Assembly (NCBI GenBank): GCA_947034885.2 | Contig: OX344753.2 | Location: 7,564,001 to 7,628,000 of the forward strand | DNA: 64,000 nucleotides | Source of the DNA: Thuidium tamariscinum | Lineage: Eukaryota; Streptophyta; Bryopsida; Hypnales; Thuidiaceae | Reading direction: 5' to 3' | In this document: in pieces, positions 3,066-51,491 of the stretch | How the letters are laid out: every line of letters begins with the position of its first letter | Numbering within the stretch: the stretch's first letter is position 1 | Made by a program: the position numbers and the translations under genes | Notes under the pieces: model-generated | What the model was told of the DNA's origin: nothing | The model's input: the letters and a program-made list of their open reading frames with translations, nothing else | Database searches by the model: none

Positions 3066-3277
3066 TTTTTGAAGAAGTGCCATAGTGGCAATATAAAATG
3101 TTATAGTAGTACTCCAAGTCACAACATTCATCCACTTATTGGATGTATAGCATGGTTTTCATCCACAATTAGGCGATTTCATCTATTATTTTTTTCAATT
3201 TCAAAGTTGTCCAGCGATATCATCCAATATTTTTTTGGCACTTTTTATAACCTTTTTGAGCCAGATTTTTTTTCCTA
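3066..3277. repeat. GAAGTGCCATAGTGG family, copy 2, split by an insertion
   Basis: Same family as 2,797-3,020, with a closer match to the copy at 9,684. The sequence is interrupted after position 3,277. Its missing right end (GTGCAATCTGGCACCAG) resumes at 3,887, so the intervening 607 bp is a nested insertion. Confidence 0.65.
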
Positions 3278-3884: not shown

Positions 3885-3886
3885 TA

Positions 3887-5983: not shown

Positions 5984-5985
5984 TA

Positions 5986-6589: not shown

Positions 6590-6591
6590 TA

Positions 6592-23129: not shown

Positions 23130-24200
23130 GAGCTATTTCACTCTTCATCATCGTTTTGTCTAACTTGTATCCATATGTAAAAATTATGATTCAGAAAATT
23201 TTGCAATCAAATTGTTTCTGTACGTAAACTCATGGTGCTTGAATTGTGACTGTAAAAATAGTGTTTCCAAAATTTCAACAAATTTGAATCTGTATGTTTA
23301 ATCTGAATGTTAAAATGGTGGTTCAGAATTGCAATGCTACACGTGTTTCACCTATGCCTGAAGCAAGCAACTGCCATTTTGTGAATTCGTCGTACTGATT
23401 CCAATTTGACTTTTATCCGTTTCTTTAGTGTTCCTCCTGTTTGAATGGAATTTTTAAAGTTTTGCTCCGCGGATGAGTGTAATTGTTTATTCCTTTCTGC
23501 AAGCTTTCAGAAAGGCCTTTCTGAAGGTTTCTGCCTTCGGCAACCTTAATCCTGAAGCATAATCCTTCCTGTCACCTTATTCTTATTTAAACCCTGCCAC
23601 TTATTTATATCTGCTGAATGATGATTACTTTAGCAAGCACGATACCACGCATTTGTTGATACCTACGGCTGATTAGAAGTTTGATATACAGTACAGTACG
23701 TTTGTTGTTGCCAACCTACATGACCGTTAAGTGGATTCACTGAGATGAGGGTCTACTGCTTTCTCAGAGACAAAAATTGCAGACCAAGCGAGAGAGGACA
23801 GAGGTGCTCCGAGGACCTCAACGCACTTTACCTCTAAAAATACGAAAGCCAGTGAAGTGCACCTACTTTCGAATCACAAGCTCTCACAGTACTTGAACCC
23901 AATAAAACACCCAAACAAAACTAAATTTCCCGGCATGTTCCATCTACTGCAAGACAGGTCGGAGCATAGAATGCTGCATTCTTCAAAATTGATGCTACAA
24001 TTCGTGGTACAGTTGAAGAAGTACACCAAATTTACCACGTAAAACACAAATTTCCAAAGGAGCTGCAATTGCTGAACTCAAAAAATTCGGTGCTTCCAAG
24101 TCTCAAGAAGCCGGCATGGTACAAAAGCATGGGTTAAGAGAAGGGCCACTCCCAGGACCTAATGCAGCAAAAGAGTTTCACTCATTTTCACTCATTTCAA
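23130..24200. other. 3'-to-3' intergenic region
   Basis: Separates two convergent genes and must contain both 3' untranslated regions. It holds short open frames only. A small palindrome CTTTCAGAAAGGCCTTTCTGAAGG lies around 23,504-23,527; no other feature is seen. Confidence 0.5.
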
Positions 24201-26021: not shown

Positions 26022-26965
26022 CTGCAAAACACAAAGATTCTTGCCCTAATTACTCATCTAAGTCTCAACCGACAATTCTGCCATTACCGACAGAGCTGAA
26101 AGCCTCTGGCCATGGCCATGGATAACGCTCCCTGATCGTTTTTGAAAGGTCTAAGGAGGTGCGATTCAAGCACCACACTACGAGTTCGGATAAGTACATA
26201 AACTCCACAAGCATTGTTCATTACCTCTGAACAGCTGATCTGGATTCTCTACACAACCTACGAGAGCATCAAATGAGATTCGTTTTCGCCGTGAGCATTT
26301 CGTACACAACCTCAAATCAGGTATTCATACCTCCAGAGCGAACGTAGTAGATTGATAGAGCTAGTTTCCGGATCGGTCCAGTTGCAGACCGCGTCTCCGC
26401 ACTTCCACGAGGTCAGAGCTTTCTCAGATCCCTCACCACAACCAGAGTCTAACACTGCAGCTTCTCTCATTTGCCTCTCTCGCTACTAAGGTAGACCAGA
26501 TCTACCTTCTCCACCGCAGGGTTAGCGTGCTTCACCCCAATGTGTCACAGTGAACTGGCGAATCATAAGACCCGCGCTGGCACCATCGGTATACCTCGTA
26601 AGCCACACATATATAGCAGTCGGTGTGCCGAGCGCCGAGAGATCCTAGCTGTGAAATTTCTATATTTACAACTTCTCCAGTTCGATCCGTCAGCTTCGGA
26701 TTATCGGGTCATGGAATGCATCTGGAGTGTACAATAGCCGATACAGAACAACGGAGTCGCCTTCTACTGTACAATAATACCGGAACACTATGGTGGTGAT
26801 GTGTTGTCCATTACCGTTCTAGCCCTGGAAAATAGAAACAGAGACACAACATCGATATATTATCGAGACCTCCAAAGTGTGCACAGCAAAGGCCCCGGCT
26901 CTCAGGTCAGGCGCCCAGCTCCTGACTAGGGGAAACACTGAATCTGCGGATGCCCATAATTTCAA
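26022..26965 (-). promoter_or_regulatory. Likely promoter and leader of the DUF641-like gene
   Basis: About 0.9 kb of balanced composition with no convincing open frame, upstream of a start codon preceded by a splice acceptor. It probably contains the transcription start and a leader exon; no TATA element can be assigned. A palindrome GGTAGACCAGATCTACC lies near 26,490-26,506. Confidence 0.35.
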
Positions 26966-27538
26966 GGCGAGGCAGGTGGTGATTTGCAGCAGCAGAATCT
27001 TTTGGCTTATGCGCAGGCATTAGCAGTAAACTAGTCGGCACTTGAATACAGAATTGCAAATATTAGATGGACGGGCGACTTCTGTGGTTACCTTGACGGT
27101 AACGTGCTTGAATCATTCTCTTCATTCTGCGAATCGATGAAGAAAGCGTGCAACGTGTCTGTCTAGGGGAAGCCGTCGGTAAGGTAAATCGTAACTTGCA
27201 CTCTGATTGCGCTTGGCCATAGTTACAGTGCTTGCTACCGTCATCCATGTGGGGCCGCAGATAAATAGAAGACAAACAATCATTGGACCTACTTGCCACC
27301 CGGTGAAGCAACTTCAGTGCGACTTTTGCAGGGCAGGGGTTTCCAATGTTCCGTAAAGCTTTTACGAGACCGGGATTTGTAATACCGTTTCTAGGTGAAC
27401 ATACTACCCATACACTAGCGCATGGCGAAGCCATGCCTGTTTCAAACGAGACGAAGATTCTCGAGAGGACTATACTCACTACAGTGCCAAAGATACTACA
27501 CCATTCCATTTGCGACAATATGAGGTTTCAGCTTCCTC
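26966..27538. repeat. Outer, diverged continuation of palindrome arm 1
   Basis: Mirrors 45,297-45,871 with roughly three quarters identity by eye. Matching blocks include GGCAGGTGGTGA, AGTCGGCACTTGAATACA, CCTTGACGGTAACGTG and TTTCAAACGAGACGAAGATT. The coordinate sum stays near 72,837, so it is colinear with the arms. The step from diverged to identical is sharp, at 27,538/27,539. Open frames here are not conserved with those in the partner, so it is probably non-coding. Confidence 0.8.
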
Positions 27539-27599
27539 TTCAGCAATCGCGCGAGTACGTAGGATGCTGCTGTTTCATTTAAGTCTTCAAGCAGATCTG

Positions 27600-28680
27600 C
27601 AGTGTCAGTGAGCTTTGATTTATTTATTTACAAGTTTGAAAATGTCACGACCGAGACCAGGGGTCGGCGAAGGTGAATAAGACAATTGTCTCGTCTCTGC
27701 CTCAGTCACGAATCATGCTCCTTCCTTTAACGGTGGAGTGCAGTCTCAAAATCTTTAGAAAGTTCGCAATGAATTAATTAACGGAGCTCCAGAGCAGTAG
27801 CAGAAGATGCCTCAAACTTTGATATAAATTGCCACGGCAGGTGGTTATGAGTCTAGTCGTATTGATTGTTCCGACACGCCATTACGTATACCAGGCTCCA
27901 GATCTCAGATGAGATTCTGAAATGGAATGCCTCATGTACCAGAATCTCTCGTTAATTACCACGCCAAAGAGTATCATCACTTGTTCTCAGCCAATGCATT
28001 GTTCCGTTTCAAAACGACCTGGTGATGCACGGCAGCTAGTGCGACTGCTGCAGGAAATCGTTTGCCATCGACCGAACCAAACCTCCGAAGCGAAGGGGCA
28101 ATCAGGCGAGGTGGCGGAAGGACCACGTGGCATACAATAAACTAAAAAACCTAACTCAGTTTCAGATTAAGAACGCTGCCAACGAAGTTCTTCGCATCTT
28201 CCGAATAAACAATGCACCATGGTACAAAATTTGCACAATGCGCTCGAAACTAAATAACGGTGGTCGCCGTCACCACTCCACACAAGTCACGCAGGTCAAC
28301 AGACAGAGACCATTCAAGAAACGAGATCTCCGTTCTAAGAATGGTAAATGGCTTTCGGCGAGACCAGAGAATGCAACACCTCGTCAGTCGTAAGACGCTT
28401 CATTTAGAGGACAACGGGTCAAGACAACGAACGAACAACTTCACACCGAGAACTCTTTCGGCGGGATACACATCGTCCTCTAATTTGCGGCGCCTCAAGT
28501 TAAGGACTGCCGACCGCGCGGAGTACCTCAGAACGGTGTGATTTTGCCTCATGCCGAAACCAGCACGAATCAACGGATTAACAGATTCACTGTAAACAAG
28601 CCAGATCGTCGAGGACCACGGCCGAGGCCTTCACTTGGCCCGCGAATTTCGCAACAACAAGCTCGAGGCAGTCGAACCCC
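27600..28680 (+). other. Upstream region of the arm-1 secreted-protein gene
   Basis: Balanced-composition DNA with short open frames (for example 27,922-28,140) that show no family resemblance and poor codon structure. It is likely promoter and 5' flank. Confidence 0.4.
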
Positions 28681-28684
28681 ACAA

Positions 28685-28692
28685 CTTTAAAA
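28685..28692 (+). promoter_or_regulatory. TATA-like box, arm-1 gene
   Basis: TTTAAAAG, about 230 bp before the ATG at 28,920. It is the only TATA-like site close upstream in this GC-rich stretch. Weak evidence. Confidence 0.3.
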
Positions 28693-28919
28693 GCCAGGCC
28701 AGCATTCACCATTACCTGCACTCAGGTTGCTATCGCCTCTCCTCGTTTCCAACCCAGCAGGCGCTCATCGCATTGCTGGCCATTCGACTGGCGATCACTC
28801 TCGGACGGAAGTACTTACTATACATTGCATTGCAACTTAGCGGACGCGATTTTCTGGGTTCCCACCACCCGGGCGATCCCGATTGTTCCAGCGGCTTCCA
28901 TCCAGCTAACTCGATCTCC

Positions 28920-29273
28920 ATGGCGAGTCGCCGAGCCTTCGCAGCCCGACACGAGGCGGCCCTGATGACCCTGGCCGTGCTGGTGGCCATGGCCCTGCTC
29001 GTCGCCGGCGCGGACGCGGGCCGCTGGAGCCACAAGCACCGTCACCACCACCGCGGCCACGCCAGCCCGCCCGCGCCGCCCGGCTTCGACCAGCCCACGG
29101 CCGCTCCGTCTCCGCCCTTCTTCGGCGACGGACCCGCGGCGTCCCCGTTCACGCAGAGGTGGTCGCACTCTGGCTCCGAAGAGCCTATTGCGGATTTGGC
29201 CCCGGCGGACTCGCCCCTGTCGTGGGACGGTTCGCCGCAGGCCACGCCTTCTCAGGAGTCCGGGTTCTACTGA
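28920..29273 (+). CDS. Small secreted Pro/His-rich protein, arm-1 copy
   Basis: 117 aa from an ATG in good context (CTCCATGGCG). Residues 1-33 form a signal peptide: basic start, a Leu/Ala/Val core (about 15-29), and a small-residue end before GRWSH. The mature part opens with a His/Arg cluster (KHRHHHRGH), then is Pro/Ala/Ser-rich with AP, SP and PP dipeptides typical of hydroxyproline-glycosylated wall proteins, and ends in QESGFY. No Cys and no known peptide-hormone motif. The frame is open 95 codons upstream of the ATG without another in-frame ATG, so the start is secure. The DNA is far GC-richer than its surroundings. An identical copy faces it at 43,562-43,915. It could be an arabinogalactan-like peptide or a signalling precursor; function is unknown. 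Confidence 0.7.
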   Translation: MASRRAFAARHEAALMTLAVLVAMALLVAGADAGRWSHKHRHHHRGHASPPAPPGFDQPTAAPSPPFFGDGPAASPFTQRWSHSGSEEPIADLAPADSPLSWDGSPQATPSQESGFY

Positions 29274-29795
29274 CCAACGGATCGCGGTGACATTGCCTGC
29301 GGCAGGGCTCTCGCCTGTTCCGATCCCGACGTACGGTTTATACACTTACAAATAGCTAGTCTACGTCCAAGTTGCTCGGGGTCCCCGATCCCCCGTTCGC
29401 CCGGCTTTGATCTCCCACGAACTAACTAATTAGGCCTAGGCTGTGCAGTGAGTGCGTTGTTGGAGACGACCTTAGTCCAGAGGCGGGAGCCACTTGGGGC
29501 CTTAACTTTCAATTTTGCTAAGATACGACCTTTAGTTACCTTTAGTTACGCCCTTCATTGCCTTGGAGGCTCAGGGAAGGCCCATGCTTCGAATAGGCTG
29601 CAGAGTGCTGTCCACTAATCCAGAAGCTAGTCATGATGTAGCTTAGTCACGAAGTATATATACAGTCAGGAGCTCGGTGGCACCTGCGTCGATCAGATAA
29701 TTATACGGTTCAATGCTAGCGAGAGTCCCAGCCAGCAACGGACGCCGTGCACACGGACTGTCTTGGCAGGGCCATCTAATCTAATATACTTCTGA
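29274..29795 (+). other. 3' region of the arm-1 gene
   Basis: GC-balanced sequence between the stop codon and a candidate polyadenylation signal. It contains a short direct repeat (CTTTAGTTAC twice near 29,530-29,550). Confidence 0.4.
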
Positions 29796-29801
29796 AATAA
29801 A
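29796..29801 (+). other. Candidate polyadenylation signal, arm-1 gene
   Basis: AATAAA about 520 bp after the stop codon, the first perfect hexamer downstream. Confidence 0.35.
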
Positions 29802-31217
29802 TGTTCAGGCATGAAGTCCACCCGTGCGTGTGGTTGAATTCGAGCTGTTCTTGTTCATCCCACTTAGCTTCAAGGCTTGGAATGCTGTACGTCTATGTGG
29901 TTGAATGCTGCATGCATCCGCTTTCCCGGCATGATCGCCATACTCAAATGAATTGTGGAAATTCGGGGCACTGGCAGTTGCGAATTGAGCGCGCGCGCGC
30001 GCGTTCGTTGCTGGGGCCTTCGTTACACGTTATCCTGGAATCTGGCTAGCCAGCGTGCTGTCGAACGATACACATCCGCCTAAGTTCGATCCGTGATGGA
30101 TCGAAATGAATTCACGGCCATGATAATTTGCGCGCACACATCCCATGAATTGAAAGAGCCGCATGCATGCATGTAGCTGCCTGGCGCGGCGTCCGCCCAT
30201 CCATGCCAGCGAGCTCGGAGCTCGAATTAATTTGTACGTTCGTGCCCACGCACGCGTCTCGCGCCCAAGGCCCCGGCGCGACGGGCGCCCTTGACTGGGA
30301 GGAACCGCTACCCGCCAGCACTTCAGCTTGCTTCAGTCCGGGTGCGACGCATGCAGCGAGCACCAGACCCATATTGTTTGGTGGGGGGTCGGGGCACGGT
30401 ATATATTTCATGGTTGTCGCCCTCTCCTTCATGGGCTATGATATCACCTGGCTGCGTCCGAGAGCAGACCTGCTTCTCACTCATCTGATCTTCAGATGCA
30501 ATCTGCACCCCATGAGCCCTTTTGCTGCTCCTCTCCCGTGCTCCCATCCACATTCCACAATGAAAGTCGAAAATTGAAAAAGTAAAAGTTGAGCTTGCCA
30601 ACGAAGGTCCACTGCCTGTGTGTGCGGCCATGGAGTTCACAGGCATAACATTCAGTAGCCCAAAGAAGGGCTGTGTTTGCCTTGGTGAAGTTTGCATCTC
30701 CTAATTTCATCAATGACATCCCTGGGTACTGTATTTTTGTTAACTTCTCAAGTCCAAATAAAGATTAACATTAGAAGCAGAATTTATGTTTAAATTAAAA
30801 TTCACATGATGTGAAAACTAACATGATTAATTGGTTCCTTTCCTGACACAACAAAGTTATTTATTGATTTGGATCCTACAACAAAGTACATCTTGCTCCA
30901 TTGACTTGCTCTAACATTTTATGACGCGTGACCTTATAGCTAAAGAATGGTGTGAAATATTCCACATCATTTCGTCCACTGGGAGGCAATTTGGCAAAGT
31001 GCTATTGAATGTTATAGAGCACGAACTCTAATAATAAATCTTGGTAAGTTGCTTGCCGTAGGAACTCTGAAAATGTCCTTTGAACCCACCGACCTCTAAA
31101 GGCCCAAAGGCCTTGAGGTTTGGGGGTTTGAAATGCGCTTGTGTGATCTTAGATCTTTAATTTCAAATTGTTAAGTTCTAATCATAGCAATTTCTTTTAA
31201 GATTTTTATTTATTTTT
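29802..31217. other. GC-rich to AT-rich transition in arm 1, no secure gene
   Basis: 29.8-30.7 kb is GC-rich with overlapping open frames on both strands (for example 30,167-30,577 + and 30,112-30,432 -) that show no family resemblance; a TATA-like TATATATTT lies near 30,400. After about 30,720 it becomes AT-rich. Confidence 0.4.
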
Positions 31218-31330
31218 GGGTCATTGCAAGAAACATCGTTCAAAAAGCGTAGCGTTTTTCACAATACTCCTAGTTTTTTTGGGAGTACTTTAAGATTAGA
31301 AAAATAATTTTTAAAAAGATAAAAAATAAG

Positions 31331-31362
<32 letters not shown>

Positions 31363-31977
31363 CTTTAAAAAGAAGGCATCCTAAGAAGGAAAAGTATAGA
31401 AAATTTCTCGAAGTAGGTAAACTAGAAAAGTGCAAAATCTCATGAAAGTAGTTTTGTCATTGTAATTTCACATTTTAATTTATAGAAAATAGAAAAAGGA
31501 ATTTTTTTTAAACTAAAAATTTTCCGTTTAGGAAGAGTTCATATTGATTACATTTCACTAAAAAAAAGATCCAAGAACCATCTTCAATGTTCAAAAATTG
31601 TGCGCAACAGAAGTGTTGTTTGTACTCATGTGGAGGACTTAAAATAATGTATTTTTAGATTTCCTTTGGTAGATACAAGTTTATTTATTATGCAAGTAGA
31701 CCATGAAAGTTTCAACTCCAAATATTTAAATTTAGGGGCTCATAACGTAGTGAAAATCCCTAAACCTCACCTTGTGACAAATTAACAAAAATAGTTTTTA
31801 AATATAAAATGAATTTTATTAATTTCTGAAAAATAAGAGATGTGATAACAATAAAGTTGTACATCTTCAATAAAAATTTCATGTTCATTCAACTTGTGCT
31901 TCAAAAATTATTGCAGACAATGAGAGAGTATGTCCAATTGTGACAGCAAAATAGTACCACCGTTTTTGCAATGACCC
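31218..31977. mobile_element. GGGTSATTGCAAGAAA element, arm 1 copy 1, about 760 bp
   Basis: The left end is GGGTCATTGCAAGAAACATC; the right end, read inward, is GGGTCATTGCAAAAACGGTG. The interior shares AGAAGGCATCCTAAGAAGGA-like sequence with copies at 35,690 and 51,492. It carries the (AT) tract that distinguishes the arms. No transposase. Confidence 0.65.
31335..31362. repeat. (AT)14 microsatellite
   Basis: 28 bases here versus 26 in the mirror copy (41,475-41,500). Confidence 0.95.
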
Positions 31978-32036
31978 TTTTTATATTCAAGTCATTTTTG
32001 CAGTGTCATTTTTTGAATTGGGAAGGTTATTTCTAA

Positions 32037-32743
32037 GGGTGATTGCAAGAAACACCAGTGCTATTTGTTGTGTTTTGCAACAATAATCATCACTTTTTCT
32101 AGAGTACTTTAAAATTAGAAAACCATTTTTTTTAATTTAAAAATATTACTGATGTATACACCTTCAAGATGAAGGTACTCAAGGAAGGAAATGCATAGAA
32201 AATTTTTCTAAGGAAGAGAACTTGAAAAGTGCCAAACCTCAAGAAAATAGGTACTTGAATGTTTAAATTAGTTAAAAATAGTAAATACAAAAAATAAAAA
32301 GTGGCCATTTGTAACAACTCCATAGAGATGGTCATTCACCCAAAAAAACACCAAAATAACATTTTATATGTTTCAAATTACAAGTAGAAAGAAGCTCACT
32401 TTGTTGACTTCAAAACCACATAAAATTAATTATTTTTGAAATTCCTCTAGCCATTAGCTACAAGTCTACTAGAAGACCCCTCATCCAAATTTCACTTCAA
32501 TGTTCATTTTGGGGGGTACTCAATAGTATTAAAAAACTCCAAATTGACAATTGTGACATTCAATTGGGGTCTACTTTTGAAAATTATGAAAAGATATATG
32601 ATAGATAAGGTGTATGATAGTCACAAGTACCTTCTCTATGAATCTTAAGTCATTTGGAGCCAAAACACAAAAATTATGGCCAAAAAACAAATCAACATAC
32701 AACGTGGGACAAAAAATAGTACAAGTGTTTCTTGCAATCACCC
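32037..32743. mobile_element. GGGTSATTGCAAGAAA element, arm 1 copy 2, about 707 bp
   Basis: Ends GGGTGATTGCAAGAAACACC and, read inward from the right, GGGTGATTGCAAGAAACACT: 19 of 20 identical. It lies 60 bp after copy 1. No clear target duplication and no transposase. Confidence 0.7.
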
Positions 32744-33072
32744 TTAAGGTGAGATCCACTAGCACCTATTAAATAAAAGAATATTTGCAAAGCAAAGTCT
32801 TTTTTTTGTTTTGGAAACACATGAACAAATTCCATTGTAGAGGCTAAAGTACATAGAACCAAAGGCCAAGGCCTTGGCCATTGACGTTTTTTCTTGTCTT
32901 TTTTGAAACTAAACTCAAGAGGAGACCTACAAACCAAAACTCACAATAGCGAGTCCCACCCCACAATCACAAGAAACCCGACCAAACCAAAGCAAAGTCT
33001 TTAGAATCTATAATATACACATACTGTACACTTGTTAATGAAATTTCACAAGAATCTCAAAAAAAATCAATG

Positions 33073-33312
33073 AGGGCTAGCTACTATTATGTGAGTCTAG
33101 AAATACAAGCCCATGAATCTATAAAGTTATACAACTATGTTATAGCTAGGTGTTTATATCATAAAAACTTCCTATAATTACAATTATATTAGATATAGTT
33201 ACCTATATTGTAGATGTTTGCATTTTAAGCACCCTCAATGGTTGTAGGATATTTGTTTCTTTCGATGGTCAGGACTTACTTGCTTGTATTTTAATTCCTA
33301 CAGAGTAGTTAT
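33073..33312. repeat. GCTATTNTGTGAGC-family element spanning the inner border of arm 1
   Basis: A short (about 240 bp) relative of the elements at 594 and 36,770, with ACTATTATGTGAG at one end, CAATGGTTGTAGGATAT inside, and CTTGCTTGTATTTTAATTCC near the other. The arm-identity plateau ends inside it, at 33,182. It holds TTAA at 33,225-33,228, the intact counterpart of the site occupied by an element on the other arm. Confidence 0.6.
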
Positions 33313-35689
33313 TTAAAGAAAATGAATGGATGAAATAATTTTTATTTGTGTACGTTGGATCTGTTTGCGTTTATTTGTTATTTAAATTTTGAATGCTTAT
33401 CTTGTGAGGATGAAGGACATAGGAGGAGTTTTAATTTTGAAAATTTTGAGAATATTTTTGTTATAACAATGCTCACAAAGATTTGCGTTTCCTTTGGCTT
33501 GAATCCTAGAGCGGTGTTGCATTGTAGATGTGTAAATTATAAAAGAAAAATATGTGTTTGTTATTTAAATAGTTTTTGATTGTAATGTTGTTGTAAAAAA
33601 ATTGGTATTTCTTGAGATGAATTTAAAGTGATGCCTTCTCAATAGAGTCTGTATGGACAAACAATTAAGAAAAGTGATTTACCAAAGAGCTTCATTAGTT
33701 TAAATCAATTACTTTAAGTTTTAGAATCTCATTGTTATTGATTGTAAAATTGAAGGGGATGTTGGAGTCTCCAAGTATATTAAGTGACACTCCTCTTTAA
33801 AATTTGTATTTTTAGCTCTATTAGACAACTATTTGATCTCAATTTCTTTACTTCCATACTTAGAGATATTTTCAATTTTATTTCATGATTTGAAATTATC
33901 GAAACAAAAGGTGAACTTAATATTATCTTGCATGTAAATTTTGAAGGATTATAATACCACACAAGGGATATAAATAGAATTATAAGGAAGAAAAAGAGAC
34001 GAATGGATAAAATTTTGTTTACGCGGCATGTTATGAAATAAAATCTATTTACTTAGGTGGAGGAGGTGGATGATGAAGTAGAGGTAAGGATTAAACTTTT
34101 CTTCCTCTTTCTCATACTTTATTTTGTTTTATTGTAAATTCAAAGAACCGTAGCATATTGTGTATTGTAAATTTTATCATGTTTGTATAGTAAATGAGGT
34201 AGTGACTGCCTCTTTTGAGCTCATTGTAAATTTTATCATGAAAGTTTGAGAGAATGCTTTCATTGGAGAAATTTTGAATCCTCAAAGAAGCCTCTAAAAT
34301 GGCCTCAATTGGGATCCTCAATTAGATTTTAATGTGTACTTGTCAAAGAAAGGACAATTTTTTCCACTATTTCCACCCATTTTGACATCATGATGTTTTT
34401 AAAGGTACATGTTTTTTTATTAGATAATGGGACATAAGGTACTTCTTGTCATTCAAATTTTAAGTACATTGAGGGATTACTTTATTTGGAGAAGGACAAA
34501 TTTGGTGCAATTAAGTACTAATGGCTCATGTGTTTTTAGTACAATGAGTGAGACTTTTTTTTTATAAGATCATTGGTACTTCATGCTTATGATGTTTGCA
34601 CCATGAAATGCCTCTTATTGGACAATAGAACAATAGGTACTTTTTGTCATTCAAGTCCTTGGTACAATAAGTGAATTCTTTATTTAACAAATTCATAAGT
34701 ACTTGAAGAATATTCACATAAGGTAGATACACATATTGTGTACTAAGGCTATCATCTCTAGCCTTCAATAAATAGCTTTGCATGTCAATTTCTAAGGGCT
34801 TCTTTGAGGGGTCAAAATTTCTCTAATGGTTTTATGTGATTTAACAGTCTATAAATTATTTTGTTTGAATTTTGTATTAAAAAGTTATGCATGTTGGAAT
34901 TATTAATTATAGAACTCAAGGTCACTTAATATAGAATATGAAGACAATTATATTTATGGTGCCCATTGTTGATTGATGAAGAAGTGTTCAGTTTTGAGAT
35001 CTTAAGTGCCTATGTATTGACTTGTGTTTTCAAAGAACAATCACGCATTTAGTTTAGAGTTATAAAATGAAAGATTTAGACTTGAAAATAAACTAATGTC
35101 TAGCTACCTTTAAATCCAAGAGAGGGAACTTTGTGTGGCTATAAAAGTCAGAGAATATTAGATTTGATTTAAATTTTTTCTTAAATGTAGATATTTGTAT
35201 TAGCTTTTTGAAAATCTATCACATTCTTTTATTAGAGTTTGAAAGTTGAAGATATAAGCTTGAAAGTAAATTAGTATTGAGCTACTTTTGAATTGAGGAG
35301 GAGAACTTTATCCAATCATAAAAATCAAGAGTATGAAGTTTTGACTTGAAATTTATGTGTTTTGTAAATATTTGAGTTAGCTTTTCAAAAAGTTATTGAA
35401 TACTTTTTTTGGAGTTAACATGTGAAGGGTATGGGCTTAAAAGTATAGTAGTGTCAAGTTGCATATGAATTGAGTAGAAGAAACTTTGAACAACTATAGA
35501 AGTTGGAAAATAAAAGGTTTTGAATTGAAAATTGAAGGATTTGTAGAAATTTATTTTGGATTTTTGAAAATTTATTAGACTCTTTGTTTTCAGTTTGGTA
35601 GTAGTTGTGCCACTCATTTAAGTGTTGGATATACTTTTAAGGATTTCTATGTAGATTATATACAACTCATACTACTTCTAGATGAAAGC

Positions 35690-36405
35690 AAGAAAGACCG
35701 ACCAATTTTTGTAGCATTTTCCATAGTACACATGGTTTTCTTAGGATTACTAAATAATTAAAAAAATAATTTTAAAAAGATTTAAAAAAAAAACATGTTC
35801 AATGTATATGCTTTTAAGAAGAAGATACCCTAGGAAGGAAAAATATAGAAAAAATCTTTAAATAGGAAAACTAGAAAAATGCAAAATTTCATAAAAATAG
35901 GTACTTTGATGTATTACTTTGTAAATAATAGGGAAAAGAATTTGAAAAAAAATTAAAATTGGAAATTTGGAAGAACTTTATGATGAAGAGATTTCACAAA
36001 AAGAATAATCTCAAAACCATCTTGAATGTTCAAAAGTACATGCACAATTAGTACACATGTAGAAAAAAAAATGATTTTTTAAATTGCCTTTGGTAGAAAC
36101 ATGCCTACTCGGTATGGAAATAGACCACAAAAATTTGAGCTTTAGATCATTAATTTTGGATACTCCTCAATACTAAAAAAAAACCTTAACTACAAAGTGT
36201 GACAACTTAGCTAAATTGAAATTTAATTATAAATTTTTTTTTGAATTTTTTTGAAAAATAAGAAATTTGATCATTTTCATATTTGACATTCCTAATCAAA
36301 AATTCAAAATCATCTAGTTCATACTTCAAAAGTTATAGTCAATGACAACTTTGTCATTCCAAGTGCAATGCAAAATAGATTTAGTCTTTCATGTTTTCAT
36401 CCTGC
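35690..36405. mobile_element. Diverged GGGTSATTGCAAGAAA-family element in the spacer
   Basis: Termini are degraded (AAGAAAGACC and GTCTTTCATG remain), but the interior follows the family order: TTTTAAGAAGAAGATACCCT, AGGAAGGAAAA, TAGGAAAACTAGAAAAATGC, then paired TAGAAACATGCCTACT. Limits are approximate. Confidence 0.5.
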
Positions 36406-36769
36406 TATACAATTTTTTTGGTATATTATTTGACTTATACAATACTATATGAGGTTTATACAAGTATGTGTATGAATTGATGTATTATATGGTATATCTA
36501 TGAATATAAGTGTGATTTATATGTATTGTACATATATGGTAATACTATATTCTACATATATCACATGTATATTGGTATAGATATATATGTTCATAATTTT
36601 TACAAAGTAATGTATGTATGTAAATTTTTTAATCTATACTTTTATTTTTCACTTCATCATGAGATTCTTCACATTCTGGGCCAATTCTAATTGATGCTAG
36701 AAACTTCATATTTTCCAAAGGCAAACCTTTTTATTTGATAGTAGCTTGAGGGAACTACATTGAAAAGAC

Positions 36770-37004
36770 CAAAGTTGCTATTTTGTGAGCTTAGAATCGT
36801 AAGCATATGACTCTATAGTCTATATATCTACATTATCGGTGTCTATATTGTAGAAACCTTCCATGACTATAGAATACTTATATTATGAATACCTATATTA
36901 TATGTGTTTATATGTAAGTACCTTCAATGGTTGTTGAATATCTAATTATATATATATTTGAAGCTTGAAGGCTTGCATTTCAATGCTCACATGCAGCATT
37001 ACTG
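36770..37004. mobile_element. GCTATTNTGTGAGC-family element, 235 bp
   Basis: The left end is CAAAGTTGCTATTTTGTGAG; the right end, read inward, is CAGTAATGCTGCATGTGAGC. It carries the TATATTATAGAAACC-like and CAATGGTTGTTGAATAT blocks of the family. The target duplication is uncertain. Confidence 0.55.
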
Positions 37005-38279
37005 GAAACCATCAATATTAGGCCAAGTTTTGCTCCATCATGTATGAAGATCAATTTTTAACAAATCTTAGCCCAACCTTAGTGGTTTTCATTTTTTTGG
37101 TAAAATTTTGCAATCATTGAATTGCTTGGATAAAAAACAAACGGGAGATGGCATTTATAAAACCATATAGTTCTTGTCAATGGATGGGTAGGTGGATTAG
37201 AGTTAGGAAACTAAATCCAATGAGATGGAGAAGATAGAAGAAAAAACTTGGAACTCAAGCATAGTAAAGTAAATTTATTATTTGGATTGATAAAGCCATT
37301 CACTCATGAATTCATAACTATGGAATTTGGAGAAGTCATATGATCATTAAAAAACCCAATGCAAAGACTTGTTGCTTGTCTTTCCTTTATGTGGTAATCA
37401 ACATTGCATATCCTTGACTCATAAGTGGTATTTTGGTACAATTTGCTATGAATGATTATAATTACCATAGATGTATGATTAGGAATTCACAAAGTTTGCG
37501 TGTACTTTAAATTCCTTTAAAGAAGGTAGAAATGGTTTAATGAGAAATCTATTAGTTTAGAATGAATTGTTACTTATATTGTCAATGCATGGTGGATTAT
37601 TGTTTTAAAAAACATCATCTAAAAACATTAAATTGTAGTGCTAAGGGATATCCATTGCTTAAAAGGTGTAGGTGGTTTCCACTTGATCCCTATCAAACTC
37701 TTTCAAGTTTCTTTTTGTCATTGTGGTGAAAAACTTCATAATGACATTTTTCTAATTGAAATTGAAATGATTGTTTCCTATTGGAACAATTGATTGGTTA
37801 GTTTCAAACAATTTACATACATAATTTTAAAGACATGATTTTCCTTATACAAGGACTTTTTGAATTTTGATAATTTTATTTTTGCCACAATTTTATATAA
37901 AAGAAATGAATTTTATAACAATAACCATTTTTTCAATTTTGAAAATATCAAGAATGTATAAGTCAATCTCATGAAAACAAAATTTAGGTTAAAATAATAA
38001 AAATTTGACTTCAAATATATAGATCTGGATGATTTAAATAAAGAAATTAGGCGCAACTAATGAGTTAAATAAGAAAGAAGCTAAATGACTTTATGATAAT
38101 AATTAAATTGCAATATTCTTATAAATAGTATTGAAAAACATATTCTCAAAATTTTGAAATTTTAGACTCAAACTTGGTTCTTTACCCTCAAAAGACAAGC
38201 ATCCAAATTTTGAACAACAAAGGAATGCAAACACATTCATTATACACAAATGTATGTTTTCCATCTATTGATTTTTGAC

Positions 38280-38371
38280 AATGATTAGTATGTGAGGATG
38301 AAAATGCAAGCATGTGAGTCTTGAGCATATGCATATTAAACTAATATCCTACAACCATTGGAGGTGCTAAA
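38280..38371. repeat. Distal part of the split border repeat (arm-2 side)
   Basis: Reverse-complement match to about 33,229-33,312 of the arm-1 border repeat: ATATCCTACAACCATTG is shared and AAAATGCAAGCATGTGAG matches the terminal region. It is separated from its other half (39,613 onward) by the TTAA element. Confidence 0.6.
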
Positions 38372-39612
38372 CCCCTAAAGTTCTTTCACTAAATTTTATC
38401 CAAAAGTGCTCCAAAAGTGCCATTTCTAGTACAAATACCAAACTTTAGAAAAATAACATTTTATTAGATATATAATTGTAGAATCTTGTAGTATTCTAGT
38501 ATAAAAAAATGTGAAAAAAATTTCAAAAATTTCAATTTTGTGGATTGCAAGATATTCGCATTTGAATTGATAAAAATCCTATTTTTTGCCATGAAGAAAA
38601 TTAGGCAACTAGACTCTACATGCTAAACTATTCACTGAAAGATGACACTCAATAGTACCATCTTTTTTTTTAGTTAACAGTCCCCCCGTTTTGTAAAAAA
38701 TCCAAAGTTGTTGATGTTTTATTAAAAAAATCTCCCCCTCTTGATCATTTTTAATCCAATTTAATACATAATATGAATATGAATACGAAATATGAATACA
38801 AATACAAAGACAAAATATAATATATGGATATGAATACAAAAAATAGATGTCGAATTCAAGTTTATGTATGAATACAAAATATAGATAAGGTAATGTATAT
38901 GGATATGGATTCAATAATATATCCCATATTGTTTGCAACTGAAGGCTTTCCTAAAAATTACAAATAGAGAGGGGGGATAGTTTTCAAAATCAAATAAATG
39001 ATTGAAAATCTTCACTCTTCTTACTATCCACTTAGAAGACGGTACATTTGTATGAAAAATGTCTAAGTATGTTGATGATGCCTCTTTGGATTCATTCTTC
39101 AAGTCAAGTTGGCTACATGCTTGAAAATTTTCAAATCATTTTAAAGTGTACAATATATAAGGAAAAATAATAAGTAAAATATAAAAAAAGAAAAAAAACA
39201 CTAAATTGATAAGATTTCATTTGTGAAATTGAAAAATGTCAATCCCAATGGTTATAATGATGTTATAAACAATTTCTACCAAAACTCTACATAACTTTTG
39301 ACTCATTGATTGAAATCAAATGATTCAAAGCATTCTACATATACAAAAATCAGGAAAAGCAATTTCAAAATCTCTTGCTAAAAAAGTGATTTTTCTATAC
39401 CTACTAGGATTGTCCTACTTGCGAATCAAAAAATCAAACATACAATAACTTTCTAACAATGTATTCAAAACTTATGAAAATTCTTCAGCCTCAAATGCAT
39501 TCCTTGTCCACAAATTCCTATGAAAATTCAAAGAAGATAAAAAAACTCTCTAGTCACATGAACCTGACCAATAATTCAATACTACCAAAAAATACAACTT
39601 GTACTTTAGGGG
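38372..39612. mobile_element. TTAA-type TIR element at the inner border, 1,241 bp
   Basis: The left end is CCCCTAAAGTTC and the right end, read inward, is CCCCTAAAGTAC. Flanks are TAAA (38,368-38,371) and TTGA (39,613-39,616), one-base variants of TTAA. The sequence joined across it matches the arm-1 border repeat, which has an unoccupied TTAA at 33,225, so the insertion is demonstrated by an empty site. A minus-strand open frame at 38,609-38,938 is low-complexity and not transposase-like. Relatives lie at 13,540 and 59,090. Confidence 0.75.
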
Positions 39613-39764
39613 TTGAATGCAAACACCTACAATATAGGTCACTATTTCTAATACTGTAATTATAGGAAGTTTTTATGATATAAACACCTAGCTATAACAT
39701 AGTTGTATAACTTTATAGATTCATGGGCTTGTATTTCTAGACTCACATAATAGTAGCTAGCCCT
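39613..39764. repeat. Proximal part of the border repeat, arm-2 side
   Basis: Mirrors 33,073-33,224. Identical to arm 1 from 39,655 upward; below that it drops to roughly 80 percent by eye. Confidence 0.65.
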
Positions 39765-40093
39765 CATTGATTTTTTTTGAGATTCTTGTGAAATTTCATT
39801 AACAAGTGTACAGTATGTGTATATTATAGATTCTAAAGACTTTGCTTTGGTTTGGTCGGGTTTCTTGTGATTGTGGGGTGGGACTCGCTATTGTGAGTTT
39901 TGGTTTGTAGGTCTCCTCTTGAGTTTAGTTTCAAAAAAGACAAGAAAAAACGTCAATGGCCAAGGCCTTGGCCTTTGGTTCTATGTACTTTAGCCTCTAC
40001 AATGGAATTTGTTCATGTGTTTCCAAAACAAAAAAAAGACTTTGCTTTGCAAATATTCTTTTATTTAATAGGTGCTAGTGGATCTCACCTTAA

Positions 40094-40800
40094 GGGTGAT
40101 TGCAAGAAACACTTGTACTATTTTTTGTCCCACGTTGTATGTTGATTTGTTTTTTGGCCATAATTTTTGTGTTTTGGCTCCAAATGACTTAAGATTCATA
40201 GAGAAGGTACTTGTGACTATCATACACCTTATCTATCATATATCTTTTCATAATTTTCAAAAGTAGACCCCAATTGAATGTCACAATTGTCAATTTGGAG
40301 TTTTTTAATACTATTGAGTACCCCCCAAAATGAACATTGAAGTGAAATTTGGATGAGGGGTCTTCTAGTAGACTTGTAGCTAATGGCTAGAGGAATTTCA
40401 AAAATAATTAATTTTATGTGGTTTTGAAGTCAACAAAGTGAGCTTCTTTCTACTTGTAATTTGAAACATATAAAATGTTATTTTGGTGTTTTTTTGGGTG
40501 AATGACCATCTCTATGGAGTTGTTACAAATGGCCACTTTTTATTTTTTGTATTTACTATTTTTAACTAATTTAAACATTCAAGTACCTATTTTCTTGAGG
40601 TTTGGCACTTTTCAAGTTCTCTTCCTTAGAAAAATTTTCTATGCATTTCCTTCCTTGAGTACCTTCATCTTGAAGGTGTATACATCAGTAATATTTTTAA
40701 ATTAAAAAAAATGGTTTTCTAATTTTAAAGTACTCTAGAAAAAGTGATGATTATTGTTGCAAAACACAACAAATAGCACTGGTGTTTCTTGCAATCACCC
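40094..40800. mobile_element. GGGTSATTGCAAGAAA element, arm 2 mirror of 32,037
   Basis: Exact mirror of 32,037-32,743. Confidence 0.7.
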
Positions 40801-40859
40801 TTAGAAATAACCTTCCCAATTCAAAAAATGACACTGCAAAAATGACTTGAATATAAAAA

Positions 40860-41617
40860 GGGTCATTGCAAAAACGGTGGTACTATTTTGCTGTCACAAT
40901 TGGACATACTCTCTCATTGTCTGCAATAATTTTTGAAGCACAAGTTGAATGAACATGAAATTTTTATTGAAGATGTACAACTTTATTGTTATCACATCTC
41001 TTATTTTTCAGAAATTAATAAAATTCATTTTATATTTAAAAACTATTTTTGTTAATTTGTCACAAGGTGAGGTTTAGGGATTTTCACTACGTTATGAGCC
41101 CCTAAATTTAAATATTTGGAGTTGAAACTTTCATGGTCTACTTGCATAATAAATAAACTTGTATCTACCAAAGGAAATCTAAAAATACATTATTTTAAGT
41201 CCTCCACATGAGTACAAACAACACTTCTGTTGCGCACAATTTTTGAACATTGAAGATGGTTCTTGGATCTTTTTTTTAGTGAAATGTAATCAATATGAAC
41301 TCTTCCTAAACGGAAAATTTTTAGTTTAAAAAAAATTCCTTTTTCTATTTTCTATAAATTAAAATGTGAAATTACAATGACAAAACTACTTTCATGAGAT
41401 TTTGCACTTTTCTAGTTTACCTACTTCGAGAAATTTTCTATACTTTTCCTTCTTAGGATGCCTTCTTTTTAAAGATATATATATATATATATATATATAT
41501 GAAACTTATTTTTTATCTTTTTAAAAATTATTTTTCTAATCTTAAAGTACTCCCAAAAAAACTAGGAGTATTGTGAAAAACGCTACGCTTTTTGAACGAT
41601 GTTTCTTGCAATGACCC
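40860..41617. mobile_element. GGGTSATTGCAAGAAA element, arm 2 mirror of 31,218
   Basis: Mirror of 31,218-31,977, shorter by one AT unit. Confidence 0.65.
41475..41500. repeat. (AT)13 microsatellite
   Basis: The only length difference found between the arms (28 bases in the mirror). Confidence 0.95.
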
Positions 41618-43033
41618 AAAAATAAATAAAAATCTTAAAAGAAATTGCTATGATTAGAACTTAACAATTTGAAATTAAAGATCTAAGATCACACAAGCGC
41701 ATTTCAAACCCCCAAACCTCAAGGCCTTTGGGCCTTTAGAGGTCGGTGGGTTCAAAGGACATTTTCAGAGTTCCTACGGCAAGCAACTTACCAAGATTTA
41801 TTATTAGAGTTCGTGCTCTATAACATTCAATAGCACTTTGCCAAATTGCCTCCCAGTGGACGAAATGATGTGGAATATTTCACACCATTCTTTAGCTATA
41901 AGGTCACGCGTCATAAAATGTTAGAGCAAGTCAATGGAGCAAGATGTACTTTGTTGTAGGATCCAAATCAATAAATAACTTTGTTGTGTCAGGAAAGGAA
42001 CCAATTAATCATGTTAGTTTTCACATCATGTGAATTTTAATTTAAACATAAATTCTGCTTCTAATGTTAATCTTTATTTGGACTTGAGAAGTTAACAAAA
42101 ATACAGTACCCAGGGATGTCATTGATGAAATTAGGAGATGCAAACTTCACCAAGGCAAACACAGCCCTTCTTTGGGCTACTGAATGTTATGCCTGTGAAC
42201 TCCATGGCCGCACACACAGGCAGTGGACCTTCGTTGGCAAGCTCAACTTTTACTTTTTCAATTTTCGACTTTCATTGTGGAATGTGGATGGGAGCACGGG
42301 AGAGGAGCAGCAAAAGGGCTCATGGGGTGCAGATTGCATCTGAAGATCAGATGAGTGAGAAGCAGGTCTGCTCTCGGACGCAGCCAGGTGATATCATAGC
42401 CCATGAAGGAGAGGGCGACAACCATGAAATATATACCGTGCCCCGACCCCCCACCAAACAATATGGGTCTGGTGCTCGCTGCATGCGTCGCACCCGGACT
42501 GAAGCAAGCTGAAGTGCTGGCGGGTAGCGGTTCCTCCCAGTCAAGGGCGCCCGTCGCGCCGGGGCCTTGGGCGCGAGACGCGTGCGTGGGCACGAACGTA
42601 CAAATTAATTCGAGCTCCGAGCTCGCTGGCATGGATGGGCGGACGCCGCGCCAGGCAGCTACATGCATGCATGCGGCTCTTTCAATTCATGGGATGTGTG
42701 CGCGCAAATTATCATGGCCGTGAATTCATTTCGATCCATCACGGATCGAACTTAGGCGGATGTGTATCGTTCGACAGCACGCTGGCTAGCCAGATTCCAG
42801 GATAACGTGTAACGAAGGCCCCAGCAACGAACGCGCGCGCGCGCGCTCAATTCGCAACTGCCAGTGCCCCGAATTTCCACAATTCATTTGAGTATGGCGA
42901 TCATGCCGGGAAAGCGGATGCATGCAGCATTCAACCACATAGACGTACAGCATTCCAAGCCTTGAAGCTAAGTGGGATGAACAAGAACAGCTCGAATTCA
43001 ACCACACGCACGGGTGGACTTCATGCCTGAACA
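41618..43033. other. Arm-2 transition region, no secure gene
   Basis: Mirror of 29,802-31,217, with the same overlapping open frames. Confidence 0.4.
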
Positions 43034-43039
43034 TTTATT
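43034..43039 (-). other. Candidate polyadenylation signal, arm-2 gene
   Basis: AATAAA on the minus strand, mirror of 29,796-29,801. Confidence 0.35.
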
Positions 43040-43561
43040 TCAGAAGTATATTAGATTAGATGGCCCTGCCAAGACAGTCCGTGTGCACGGCGTCCGTTGC
43101 TGGCTGGGACTCTCGCTAGCATTGAACCGTATAATTATCTGATCGACGCAGGTGCCACCGAGCTCCTGACTGTATATATACTTCGTGACTAAGCTACATC
43201 ATGACTAGCTTCTGGATTAGTGGACAGCACTCTGCAGCCTATTCGAAGCATGGGCCTTCCCTGAGCCTCCAAGGCAATGAAGGGCGTAACTAAAGGTAAC
43301 TAAAGGTCGTATCTTAGCAAAATTGAAAGTTAAGGCCCCAAGTGGCTCCCGCCTCTGGACTAAGGTCGTCTCCAACAACGCACTCACTGCACAGCCTAGG
43401 CCTAATTAGTTAGTTCGTGGGAGATCAAAGCCGGGCGAACGGGGGATCGGGGACCCCGAGCAACTTGGACGTAGACTAGCTATTTGTAAGTGTATAAACC
43501 GTACGTCGGGATCGGAACAGGCGAGAGCCCTGCCGCAGGCAATGTCACCGCGATCCGTTGG

Positions 43562-43915
43562 TCAGTAGAACCCGGACTCCTGAGAAGGCGTGGCCTGCGG
43601 CGAACCGTCCCACGACAGGGGCGAGTCCGCCGGGGCCAAATCCGCAATAGGCTCTTCGGAGCCAGAGTGCGACCACCTCTGCGTGAACGGGGACGCCGCG
43701 GGTCCGTCGCCGAAGAAGGGCGGAGACGGAGCGGCCGTGGGCTGGTCGAAGCCGGGCGGCGCGGGCGGGCTGGCGTGGCCGCGGTGGTGGTGACGGTGCT
43801 TGTGGCTCCAGCGGCCCGCGTCCGCGCCGGCGACGAGCAGGGCCATGGCCACCAGCACGGCCAGGGTCATCAGGGCCGCCTCGTGTCGGGCTGCGAAGGC
43901 TCGGCGACTCGCCAT
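43562..43915 (-). CDS. Small secreted Pro/His-rich protein, arm-2 copy
   Basis: Encodes the same 117 residues as 28,920-29,273, with identical flanks through the promoter-side and 3' regions. The two genes point toward the spacer, so transcription from both would converge on the palindrome centre. Their products, and any transcript reads, cannot be told apart by sequence. Signal peptide, His/Arg cluster and Pro-rich tail are as in the other copy. Confidence 0.7.
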   Translation of the reverse strand: MASRRAFAARHEAALMTLAVLVAMALLVAGADAGRWSHKHRHHHRGHASPPAPPGFDQPTAAPSPPFFGDGPAASPFTQRWSHSGSEEPIADLAPADSPLSWDGSPQATPSQESGFY

Positions 43916-44142
43916 GGAGATCGAGTTAGCTGGATGGAAGCCGCTGGAACAATCGGGATCGCCCGGGTGGTGGGAACCCAGAAAATCGCGTCCGCTAAGT
44001 TGCAATGCAATGTATAGTAAGTACTTCCGTCCGAGAGTGATCGCCAGTCGAATGGCCAGCAATGCGATGAGCGCCTGCTGGGTTGGAAACGAGGAGAGGC
44101 GATAGCAACCTGAGTGCAGGTAATGGTGAATGCTGGCCTGGC

Positions 44143-44150
44143 TTTTAAAG
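44143..44150 (-). promoter_or_regulatory. TATA-like box, arm-2 gene
   Basis: Mirror of the TTTAAAAG at 28,685-28,692. Weak evidence. Confidence 0.3.
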
Positions 44151-45296
44151 TTGTGGGGTTCGACTGCCTCGAGCTTGTTGTTGCGAAATTCGCGGGCCAA
44201 GTGAAGGCCTCGGCCGTGGTCCTCGACGATCTGGCTTGTTTACAGTGAATCTGTTAATCCGTTGATTCGTGCTGGTTTCGGCATGAGGCAAAATCACACC
44301 GTTCTGAGGTACTCCGCGCGGTCGGCAGTCCTTAACTTGAGGCGCCGCAAATTAGAGGACGATGTGTATCCCGCCGAAAGAGTTCTCGGTGTGAAGTTGT
44401 TCGTTCGTTGTCTTGACCCGTTGTCCTCTAAATGAAGCGTCTTACGACTGACGAGGTGTTGCATTCTCTGGTCTCGCCGAAAGCCATTTACCATTCTTAG
44501 AACGGAGATCTCGTTTCTTGAATGGTCTCTGTCTGTTGACCTGCGTGACTTGTGTGGAGTGGTGACGGCGACCACCGTTATTTAGTTTCGAGCGCATTGT
44601 GCAAATTTTGTACCATGGTGCATTGTTTATTCGGAAGATGCGAAGAACTTCGTTGGCAGCGTTCTTAATCTGAAACTGAGTTAGGTTTTTTAGTTTATTG
44701 TATGCCACGTGGTCCTTCCGCCACCTCGCCTGATTGCCCCTTCGCTTCGGAGGTTTGGTTCGGTCGATGGCAAACGATTTCCTGCAGCAGTCGCACTAGC
44801 TGCCGTGCATCACCAGGTCGTTTTGAAACGGAACAATGCATTGGCTGAGAACAAGTGATGATACTCTTTGGCGTGGTAATTAACGAGAGATTCTGGTACA
44901 TGAGGCATTCCATTTCAGAATCTCATCTGAGATCTGGAGCCTGGTATACGTAATGGCGTGTCGGAACAATCAATACGACTAGACTCATAACCACCTGCCG
45001 TGGCAATTTATATCAAAGTTTGAGGCATCTTCTGCTACTGCTCTGGAGCTCCGTTAATTAATTCATTGCGAACTTTCTAAAGATTTTGAGACTGCACTCC
45101 ACCGTTAAAGGAAGGAGCATGATTCGTGACTGAGGCAGAGACGAGACAATTGTCTTATTCACCTTCGCCGACCCCTGGTCTCGGTCGTGACATTTTCAAA
45201 CTTGTAAATAAATAAATCAAAGCTCACTGACACTGCAGATCTGCTTGAAGACTTAAATGAAACAGCAGCATCCTACGTACTCGCGCGATTGCTGAA

Positions 45297-45871
45297 ACCC
45301 AACAATGTTACAAACGGAATGAGTGTTAACATCTTCATGCGGACTTTATCAGGAGATCATCGTTGCCACAGACTGTAGTCCTCTCGAGAATCTTCGTCTC
45401 GTTTGAAACTGGCATGGCTTCCCCGTAGGCTAGCATCAAACTCTAGATACTTAGATAGATAGTACGTGGGTTCTGGTTAAAGATTCACGGAGCATTCCCA
45501 ACCTCCTGCCCGGCAGAGTTGCACCGACATTGCTTCACGTGGTGACATTATTAGGTCTAATGATTGTCTGTCTTCTTTCCGCGACCCCACATGGATGGCG
45601 GTGCTAGCACTGTAACTTTGGCGAAGCGCAATCAGAGTGCAAGTCACGATTCGCCTTCTCGACAGCTTCCTGCAGACGACAGACATGGTCATGGGCGCCC
45701 AAAATCAACCGTCCGATGCTTGTGCAATCACGTTACCGTCAAGGCATCAACAGAAGTCGTCCCTCTACCGTATTTTCGATTTTGTATTCAAGTGCCGACT
45801 GGTTTATCGCTAATATATACTTGCGTATATGCAAAAAGATCCGTCTGCTGCTAGTCACCACCTGCCTTGTC
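45297..45871. repeat. Outer, diverged continuation of palindrome arm 2
   Basis: Colinear mirror of 26,966-27,538 at roughly three quarters identity with small indels. The reading frames differ from those in the partner, arguing against a conserved coding exon. Confidence 0.8.
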
Positions 45872-46347
45872 TGGCAATCGCAAGTTCTGGAATTCTCAAA
45901 CGGCAGAATAACTGTAGACTCTTCCTCCAATGCAATTTCCAACGCGTATACCTAGCTAAAATATCCGGGATGTCGGTGATGATGTATCGCATGGTTCGCG
46001 GGTTTGGTCTACATCGAGTACTGCGAGGTACGCAAAGGATGGCGACTTCAAATTAATTTGAAGCACTCGTTGACGTCGCCCAGCGACATGAATTTTTTGC
46101 ATAAACGGGAAGGGCTCATGCATGATCGCAAGGCCGGGAGGCAGGAAGCTCAACGTCAATCCTGTAAATTTCTAGGTGTCGAGATTGTCTGTTGAGGCCT
46201 CTTACTTTGTCAACTGTTTCTCGCGATCGGTTGTCTCTTCTGCTGTCACACTCAGGTCTGCGAAATGACTTCTTCGCAACGATAACTTCGCTTCCAAGAG
46301 TCAGGAGTCGCACCAAACTTGAAACTACAAGATTTACACTCAGCTTG

Positions 46348-46659: not shown

Positions 46660-47537
46660 GCACAAAATGTTGCTTGGAATACCTTGTTCATTATCTAGAA
46701 TATAGAGTCCAAAGCACGTAGGGTTCAATTAATGTGTACATCTTTGCTTCAAAAATCTATCTCTTAGGGCAGTGAACGGTGGGAGTAGGAAACTACGAGT
46801 AAAAAAATGATAGGGTATTTTAAAAACATGGGGCCTAAAAATTATAAAAGGGTTTAGAGTAATATAGGGTATAGAAAATGGTATTGGACGTCTCTAAAGT
46901 ACTGTAGGGTATGGAATAATAGGTCCCATTAGAAAATGCAGTAGTCCTAAAATATCCCCCTTTATATTAATTTTTTTGGCCAAAAGTCTGAAAAAGCTAC
47001 TTTCTTGACTACCTTATGAGTGGCATATTGGTCTGGATAAAAGAATAGAAATTTTTATTACTATGTATATAGTATTTTACTATACCAAATACACTTCATT
47101 AGTTCAATTACTGCTTTAGAATACCTACAGTGGCTTTACTACTCTTACAACAATATAGCACATAACTTAGTGGCTCACTATTCTTATAGCAATACAATAC
47201 ATCTGGGATGGTCCAATAATCCATGTTGTCTAGGTTACTAGTACCTTGGTTATTGCAAGTTGACTTGAGTATGATACGCCTATCAACTCGGGTATCATCG
47301 TAGGAACCTAGGTATATATGTAACTGAATATGGAGTATCCTATATTTTAATACCAGTATTGGTACCCTCTTTATAGTCATGAAGGTATCAAATGTGCAAC
47401 AATAAGCATTGTATGAAGATTATATAGATCATGACCGGCCTTCCATAAAATGTTTTTTTTTATATATGTAACCCATTGTCTCTTGTAATATTCTATCCCA
47501 ATTTTGTCAAATTGGGTTAGTCTATGAGGGATGGAAC
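46660..47537. other. AT-rich DNA, no gene seen
   Basis: Only short open frames; no delimitable element. Confidence 0.5.

Positions 47538-49658: not shown

Positions 49659-51491
<1,833 letters not shown>

Follow-up and report, generated by a model that had tools for sequence, protein, structure and literature searches.

Gene conversion has very probably homogenised the core of an old inverted duplication in the moss Thuidium tamariscinum in the very recent past

How can two inverted segments of a moss chromosome be free of substitutions when the sequence around them appears to derive from an old duplication? This question is raised by a pair of inverted repeats in Thuidium tamariscinum (NCBI GenBank assembly GCA_947034885.2, contig OX344753.2). 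We analysed a window of 64,000 nucleotides (positions 7,564,001 to 7,628,000 of the forward strand), and all coordinates below are positions in this window unless stated otherwise. The repeats lie at 7.59-7.61 Mb on a 30.6-Mb contig (C5) that is part of a set of 11 large contigs, and ordinary conserved genes adjoin them. The original prediction described a giant palindrome and offered three explanations: a very recent duplication, homogenisation of the arms, or duplication of one sequence by the assembly. It also raised sex chromosomes as one context that could be tested. Our results point with high confidence to gene conversion between old inverted paralogs, with the core homogenised very recently and one arm templating the other. 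The identical core and its sole difference are as follows:

27,539-33,182, + strand: identical core of arm A, 5,644 bp, with one 2-bp indel relative to arm B.
39,655-45,296, - strand: identical core of arm B, 5,642 bp, with one 2-bp indel relative to arm A.
31,335-31,362, + strand: AT microsatellite in arm A, (AT)14, the only core difference.
41,475-41,500: the same microsatellite in arm B, (AT)13.

End-to-end alignment of core A with the reverse complement of core B gave 0 substitutions in 5,642 aligned bases and a single 2-bp indel. The original claim that the arms are one AT unit apart was therefore borne out (14 versus 13 units). The arm coordinates given there were exact, and the sums to which paired positions were said to add up hold at both ends (27,539+45,296=72,835 and 33,182+39,655=72,837). 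The term palindrome suits the inverted, near-identical arms but not their placement, because they are not adjacent. A spacer of 6,472 bp (33,183-39,654) separates the core arms, which makes the structure an inverted repeat and not a spacer-less palindrome. Two inverted arms of very high identity around a spacer are the arrangement expected of a palindrome subject to gene conversion. Neither megablast nor blastn listed any other repeat longer than 150 bp and above 91% identity in the surrounding 104 contiguous kb (the window with 20 kb added at either end, free of N), so the core identity is not a chance occurrence. When the genome was searched with the arm (best 40 of 11,009 candidates, most of them copies of a transposon described below), only arms A and B were full-length among the matches listed, and none of the 87 matches listed was a third copy of the arm's first 3.67 kb.

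The original prediction overlooked that collinear inverted homology continues past the core, for about 580 bp outward and about 290 bp inward. The substitution level in this homology is 22-26% over most of its length. The features beyond the core are:

26,959-27,538, + strand: diverged outer flank of arm A; differs from arm B at 115 of 513 sites, Kimura two-parameter distance (K80) 0.269.
45,297-45,878, - strand: outer diverged flank of arm B, aligned to 26,959-27,538 of arm A.
33,183-33,470, + strand: inner diverged flank of arm A, in two pieces (33,183-33,224 and 33,225-33,470).
39,613-39,654, - strand: first piece of the inner flank of arm B; 4 of 39 sites differ between 33,183-33,224 and 39,616-39,654.
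38,125-38,371, - strand: second piece of the inner flank of arm B; 64 of 244 sites differ from 33,225-33,470, K80 0.325, about 73-74% identity.
38,372-39,612, - strand: transposable-element insertion in arm B only, 1,241 bp, with 10-bp perfect terminal inverted repeats (CCCCTAAAGT/ACTTTAGGGG).
33,471-38,124, no strand: spacer between the old inverted duplicates; its halves share only short weak matches, and it contains dispersed repeats.

For the inner-flank alignment the 1,241-bp insertion was set aside between the two pieces. The core differs sharply from both the outer flank (Fisher p 2e-130) and the inner flank (Fisher p 5e-93). The divergence of the outer flank neither rises nor falls steadily toward the core: mismatches per 60 aligned sites run, from outside to inside, 12, 12, 18, 10, 7, 19, 19, 6 and then 12/33. 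The diverged collinear homology on both sides of the core shows that the inverted duplication is an old one in which only the core is young.

A search of the 363-Mb genome with the outer flank of arm A found two places, the flank itself and arm B (both of the two candidates scored), which makes it a local paralog rather than a dispersed repeat. For the inner flank, positions 43-277 are covered by only two places, both in the window, among the 40 matches listed (best 40 of 132 candidates), and they are matched whole elsewhere only in arm B, at 74%. The remaining listed matches comprise 37 within positions 1-127, which represent a short dispersed repeat, and one at 129-212. The 6.5 kb adjoining arm A on the outside (20,400-26,900) returned 12 matches, namely itself and 11 short pieces, none longer than 313 bp, at 69-94% identity; apart from these short matches it is single-copy.

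These flanks bear directly on whether the arms could stem from one inverted duplication or transposition event that copied 5.64 kb very recently between previously unrelated sites, as a core without substitutions might suggest. Such a recent segmental duplication should end at non-homologous sequence; here homology at about 73-74% extends past both ends. Each copy is bordered on either side by collinear diverged homology, the outer flank of arm A matches only itself and arm B in the genome, and a fresh insertion would not fit seamlessly between existing, correctly oriented paralogous flanks. We consider this explanation highly improbable. Thus, of the three explanations first offered, a very recent duplication is contradicted by the flanks.

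Two minor observations concern the outer flank. A 46-bp block (27,427-27,472 and 45,376-45,421) has one mismatch inside this strongly diverged sequence and may be either a regulatory element that has been conserved or a separate, small patch of conversion. A 154-amino-acid (aa) minus-strand frame in the flank was dropped as a candidate gene, as the arms differ by many indels, several of them not multiples of three.

We used a short transposon common to both arms to order events within the core:

31,218-31,977, + strand: short transposon resembling a miniature inverted-repeat transposable element, family consensus 746 bp, terminal inverted repeats GGGTCATTGCAAGAAACG...; it carries the AT tract.
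40,860-41,617, - strand: element of the same 746-bp family at the mirror position in arm B.

A majority consensus of the family was built from 31 copies, taken from the 38 further high-identity matches that the arm search listed. The arm copy lies at K80 0.047 from this consensus and the 31 other copies lie at 0.020-0.075. An exact 4-bp flanking duplication is present in 26 of these 31 copies, and the arm copy is flanked by a TTTT duplication. The arm element contains no stop-to-stop frame of 75 codons or more. Half of the flank distances (K80 0.269 and 0.325) gives a per-branch duplication distance of 0.135-0.163, and the probability of finding 34 or fewer differences in 742 sites of the arm element at 0.126 is 8e-14 (binomial). 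Judged by these distances, the arm element is about three times younger than the duplication. Being common to both arms, it must have inserted into one of them after the duplication and then been copied into the other. This younger shared element and the diverged collinear homology on either side of the core indicate that the duplication is older than the identity of the arms suggests. Homogenisation, the second of the explanations first offered, thereby gains from the diverged flanks round an identical core and from the young element in both arms.

The family is dispersed in the genome (loci L026-L038 and L046-L063), with terminal repeats that start with GGGTC and an AT run of variable length; across the 31 other copies the longest AT run spans 3 to 29 units. 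Older relatives lie beside the younger copy in each arm (32,036-32,743 and 40,094-40,801), in the spacer (35,688-36,402) and outside the arms (51,491-52,236), and are roughly 66-74% identical to the family or to one another.

Each arm also carries a predicted gene:

28,920-29,273, + strand: arm A, predicted single-exon gene for a 117-aa secreted His/Pro-rich protein; open reading frame with a start that resembles a signal peptide by eye.
43,562-43,915, - strand: arm B, identical predicted gene copy, convergent with that of arm A.

The presence of a predicted gene could favour purifying selection alone, acting without recombination, as the force that keeps the arms identical. This explanation is hardly credible. 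The AT-rich inner half of the arms, transposon included, is as free of substitutions as the gene part and identical bar one AT unit, as had been claimed originally, and constraint of this kind is unexpected there.

We found no Pfam family at E 0.01 in the frame that contains the 117-aa protein. Its search of the genome gave three matches from four candidates, all scored: the two arms and one weak match on another contig (C6). The latter (34%, E 0.02) was dropped as composition-driven, with a stop inside. A polyadenylation-like AATAAA was seen by eye near 29,795.

The 1,241-bp insertion in arm B is a second element that bears on the history of the arms. It has a degenerate TTAA target duplication and the empty site is present in arm A. 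The element belongs to a dispersed family with at least 106 matches (best 40 of 7,400 candidates), several of which start exactly with its first base or stop exactly with its last. It is located 42 bp past the inner edge of the core, and this position fits a conversion tract that halted at heterology.

In our reading the locus is an old tail-to-tail inverted duplication with arms of about 6.5 kb. The identical 5.64 kb forms its middle, and this central segment was very probably homogenised, very recently, by intrachromosomal (ectopic) gene conversion from arm to arm. A double-strand break or a stalled fork in one arm may have been mended from the other by RAD51-type homologous recombination. 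The tract would have ended where pairing failed, which on the outside may reflect indels and about 22% mismatch and on the inside the nearby 1.24-kb insertion of arm B. Gene conversion of the arms would cause the two arm genes to evolve as one, and selection for two identical gene copies is possible.

With 0 substitutions on two branches of 5,642 bp, the 95% upper bound for the time since the last event is 2.7e-4 substitutions per site. Compared with the flank distances, this would place the last conversion within about 0.2% of the duplication's age. We take the neutral rate to be near 1e-8 per year. At this rate the last event would be less than some tens of thousands of years old and the duplication roughly 13-16 million years old. 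We have moderate confidence that repeated conversion is likelier than a single lucky event, because one event would need luck to fall in the latest 0.2%.

It is necessary to ask whether the assembly itself could have produced the identity. An assembler or polisher may have given one consensus to two arms that are merely similar (e.g. 95-99.9%), in which case perfect identity would be overstated; zero substitutions combined with one microsatellite difference could look like the product of such sharing. However, consensus sharing would not explain why divergence rises abruptly from near zero to 22-26% at the core edges when the flanks themselves have been resolved correctly, and copies of the dispersed family that average 6% apart remain distinct in this assembly. 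Arms of 5.6 kb are, moreover, within reach of single long reads; a comparable public moss assembly was made with PacBio HiFi (PMC11992514), a technology that may not be the one used here. We regard this explanation as unlikely. Under a shared consensus the conversion reading survives and only the word identical would soften, because a shared consensus can yield identical cores between flanks that differ by 22-26% only if the core arms are truly close. The third explanation first offered, that the assembly duplicated one sequence, is likewise disfavoured by the diverged flanks, although exact identity could still reflect consensus sharing.

Several points weigh against the conversion reading or its details. 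All of the evidence comes from one assembly, of one individual of one species, and the exact identity of the arms could partly be an assembler or polishing effect. The locus was chosen for being identical, which limits the argument for repeated conversion to moderate strength. The inner flank overlaps a short dispersed repeat over its first ~127 bp (to ~33,309), and its 42-bp piece is less diverged than the rest (4/39 vs 64/244, p 0.04), so the inner core edge may be less abrupt than the outer edge. The search with the outer side of arm B was uninformative about the flank because 39 of the 40 matches listed (best 40 of 206 candidates) were to a dispersed repeat. The dating of the shared element presupposes that element and flanks evolve at similar neutral rates. 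In addition, the 31 family copies come from the top hits to the arm copy, and the distance of the arm copy from their consensus may be somewhat underestimated as a result; in our judgement, this sampling bias could hardly account for the threefold age gap.

Moss vegetative cells are haploid and their homologous recombination is unusually efficient. Lang et al. 2008 is reportedly the cited source for suspected conversion among near-identical tandemly arrayed genes of Physcomitrella. This moss is noted for gene targeting by homologous recombination (PMC4990234), and its neighbouring duplicate genes have been suggested to undergo conversion (PMC3045890). The Physcomitrella tandemly arrayed genes resemble our locus in that both concern a moss in which neighbouring duplicates are unusually similar and conversion has been proposed; the Physcomitrella case is argued there from gene similarity, whereas here the tract edges are visible and two transposable elements order the events (PMC3045890). 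Inverted repeats whose arms convert each other are known on mammalian sex chromosomes and in willow, whose arms are homogenised in part (PMC7023750). Like the mammalian sex-chromosome palindromes and W.P1 and W.P2 of the W chromosome of Salix purpurea described there, the locus has gene-bearing inverted arms that are near-identical over kilobases. The S. purpurea palindromes lie in the sex-determining region and have ~20-kb conserved stretches in four arms (PMC7023750). In contrast, the present locus has two 5.6-kb arms with strongly diverged remnants of the duplication on both sides, on a chromosome that may or may not be sex-linked. We regard the locus as a clean new example of the known arm-to-arm conversion of inverted repeats. 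Among the top-ranked results in open-licence literature we found no account of this locus, and none of moss chromosomes with homogenised palindromes.

Arguments for conversion often draw on the similarity of genes and nothing else; at this locus, diverged remnants of the duplication survive beyond both tract ends and allow each end to be read. The locus is a ready test site for how frequent ectopic conversion is when a plant is haploid and its homologous recombination strong, and it is also suited to asking whether sequence heterology sets the ends of tracts. It carries the warning that in such a genome the identity of local duplicates does not date their duplication. We advance more tentatively, as an idea that leans toward the doubtful, that moss inverted duplicates on ordinary chromosomes are continuously homogenised and that palindromes kept young in this way are general and not a peculiarity of sex chromosomes. 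If this is true, crossing-over between the arms would also invert the spacer between individuals.

The assembly consists of 11 contigs of 17.5-54.2 Mb and eight of 12-115 kb. Public moss assemblies, among them that of PMC11992514, were made from haploid gametophytes; if the present assembly also represents a haploid gametophyte, allelic haplotypes cannot explain the two arms. The 115-kb contig opens with plastid-like rps12 and rps7 frames. The 103-kb contig looks mitochondrial by eye and carries a tRNA-Cys; its length is close to that of the mitogenomes published for three mosses (104.6-104.9 kb). It also contains a frame that we take to be rps1-like, for which Pfam found nothing.

The genes that neighbour the arms are:

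24,201-26,027, - strand: GIL1/IRKI-family gene.
21,795-22,175 and 22,635-23,126, + strand: FAD-dependent oxidoreductase, in pieces.
56,287 to 57,850, + strand: proline dehydrogenase, in pieces.

The GIL1/IRKI family is plant-specific. In the coding frame of this gene a 42-bp tandem repeat of 4.3 copies (24,439-24,620) encodes a repetitive tail. Third-position GC is 0.86 in the 117-aa gene, 0.55 in the GIL1/IRKI frame and 0.43 in the proline dehydrogenase frame. No RNA genes were found in the window at Rfam gathering thresholds. Beyond the outer flank of arm B lies a dispersed repeat of ~330 bp or more (46,767-47,100) that is 82-91% identical to 39 other places listed. The window contains a second inverted repeat pair (3,276-3,888 and 5,982-6,591) with ~77% identity over 610 bp and no identical core reported. 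A third copy of this repeat, ~380 bp long, lies outside the window (locus L024, 7,331-7,709) and is ~90.6% identical to 5,984-6,364.

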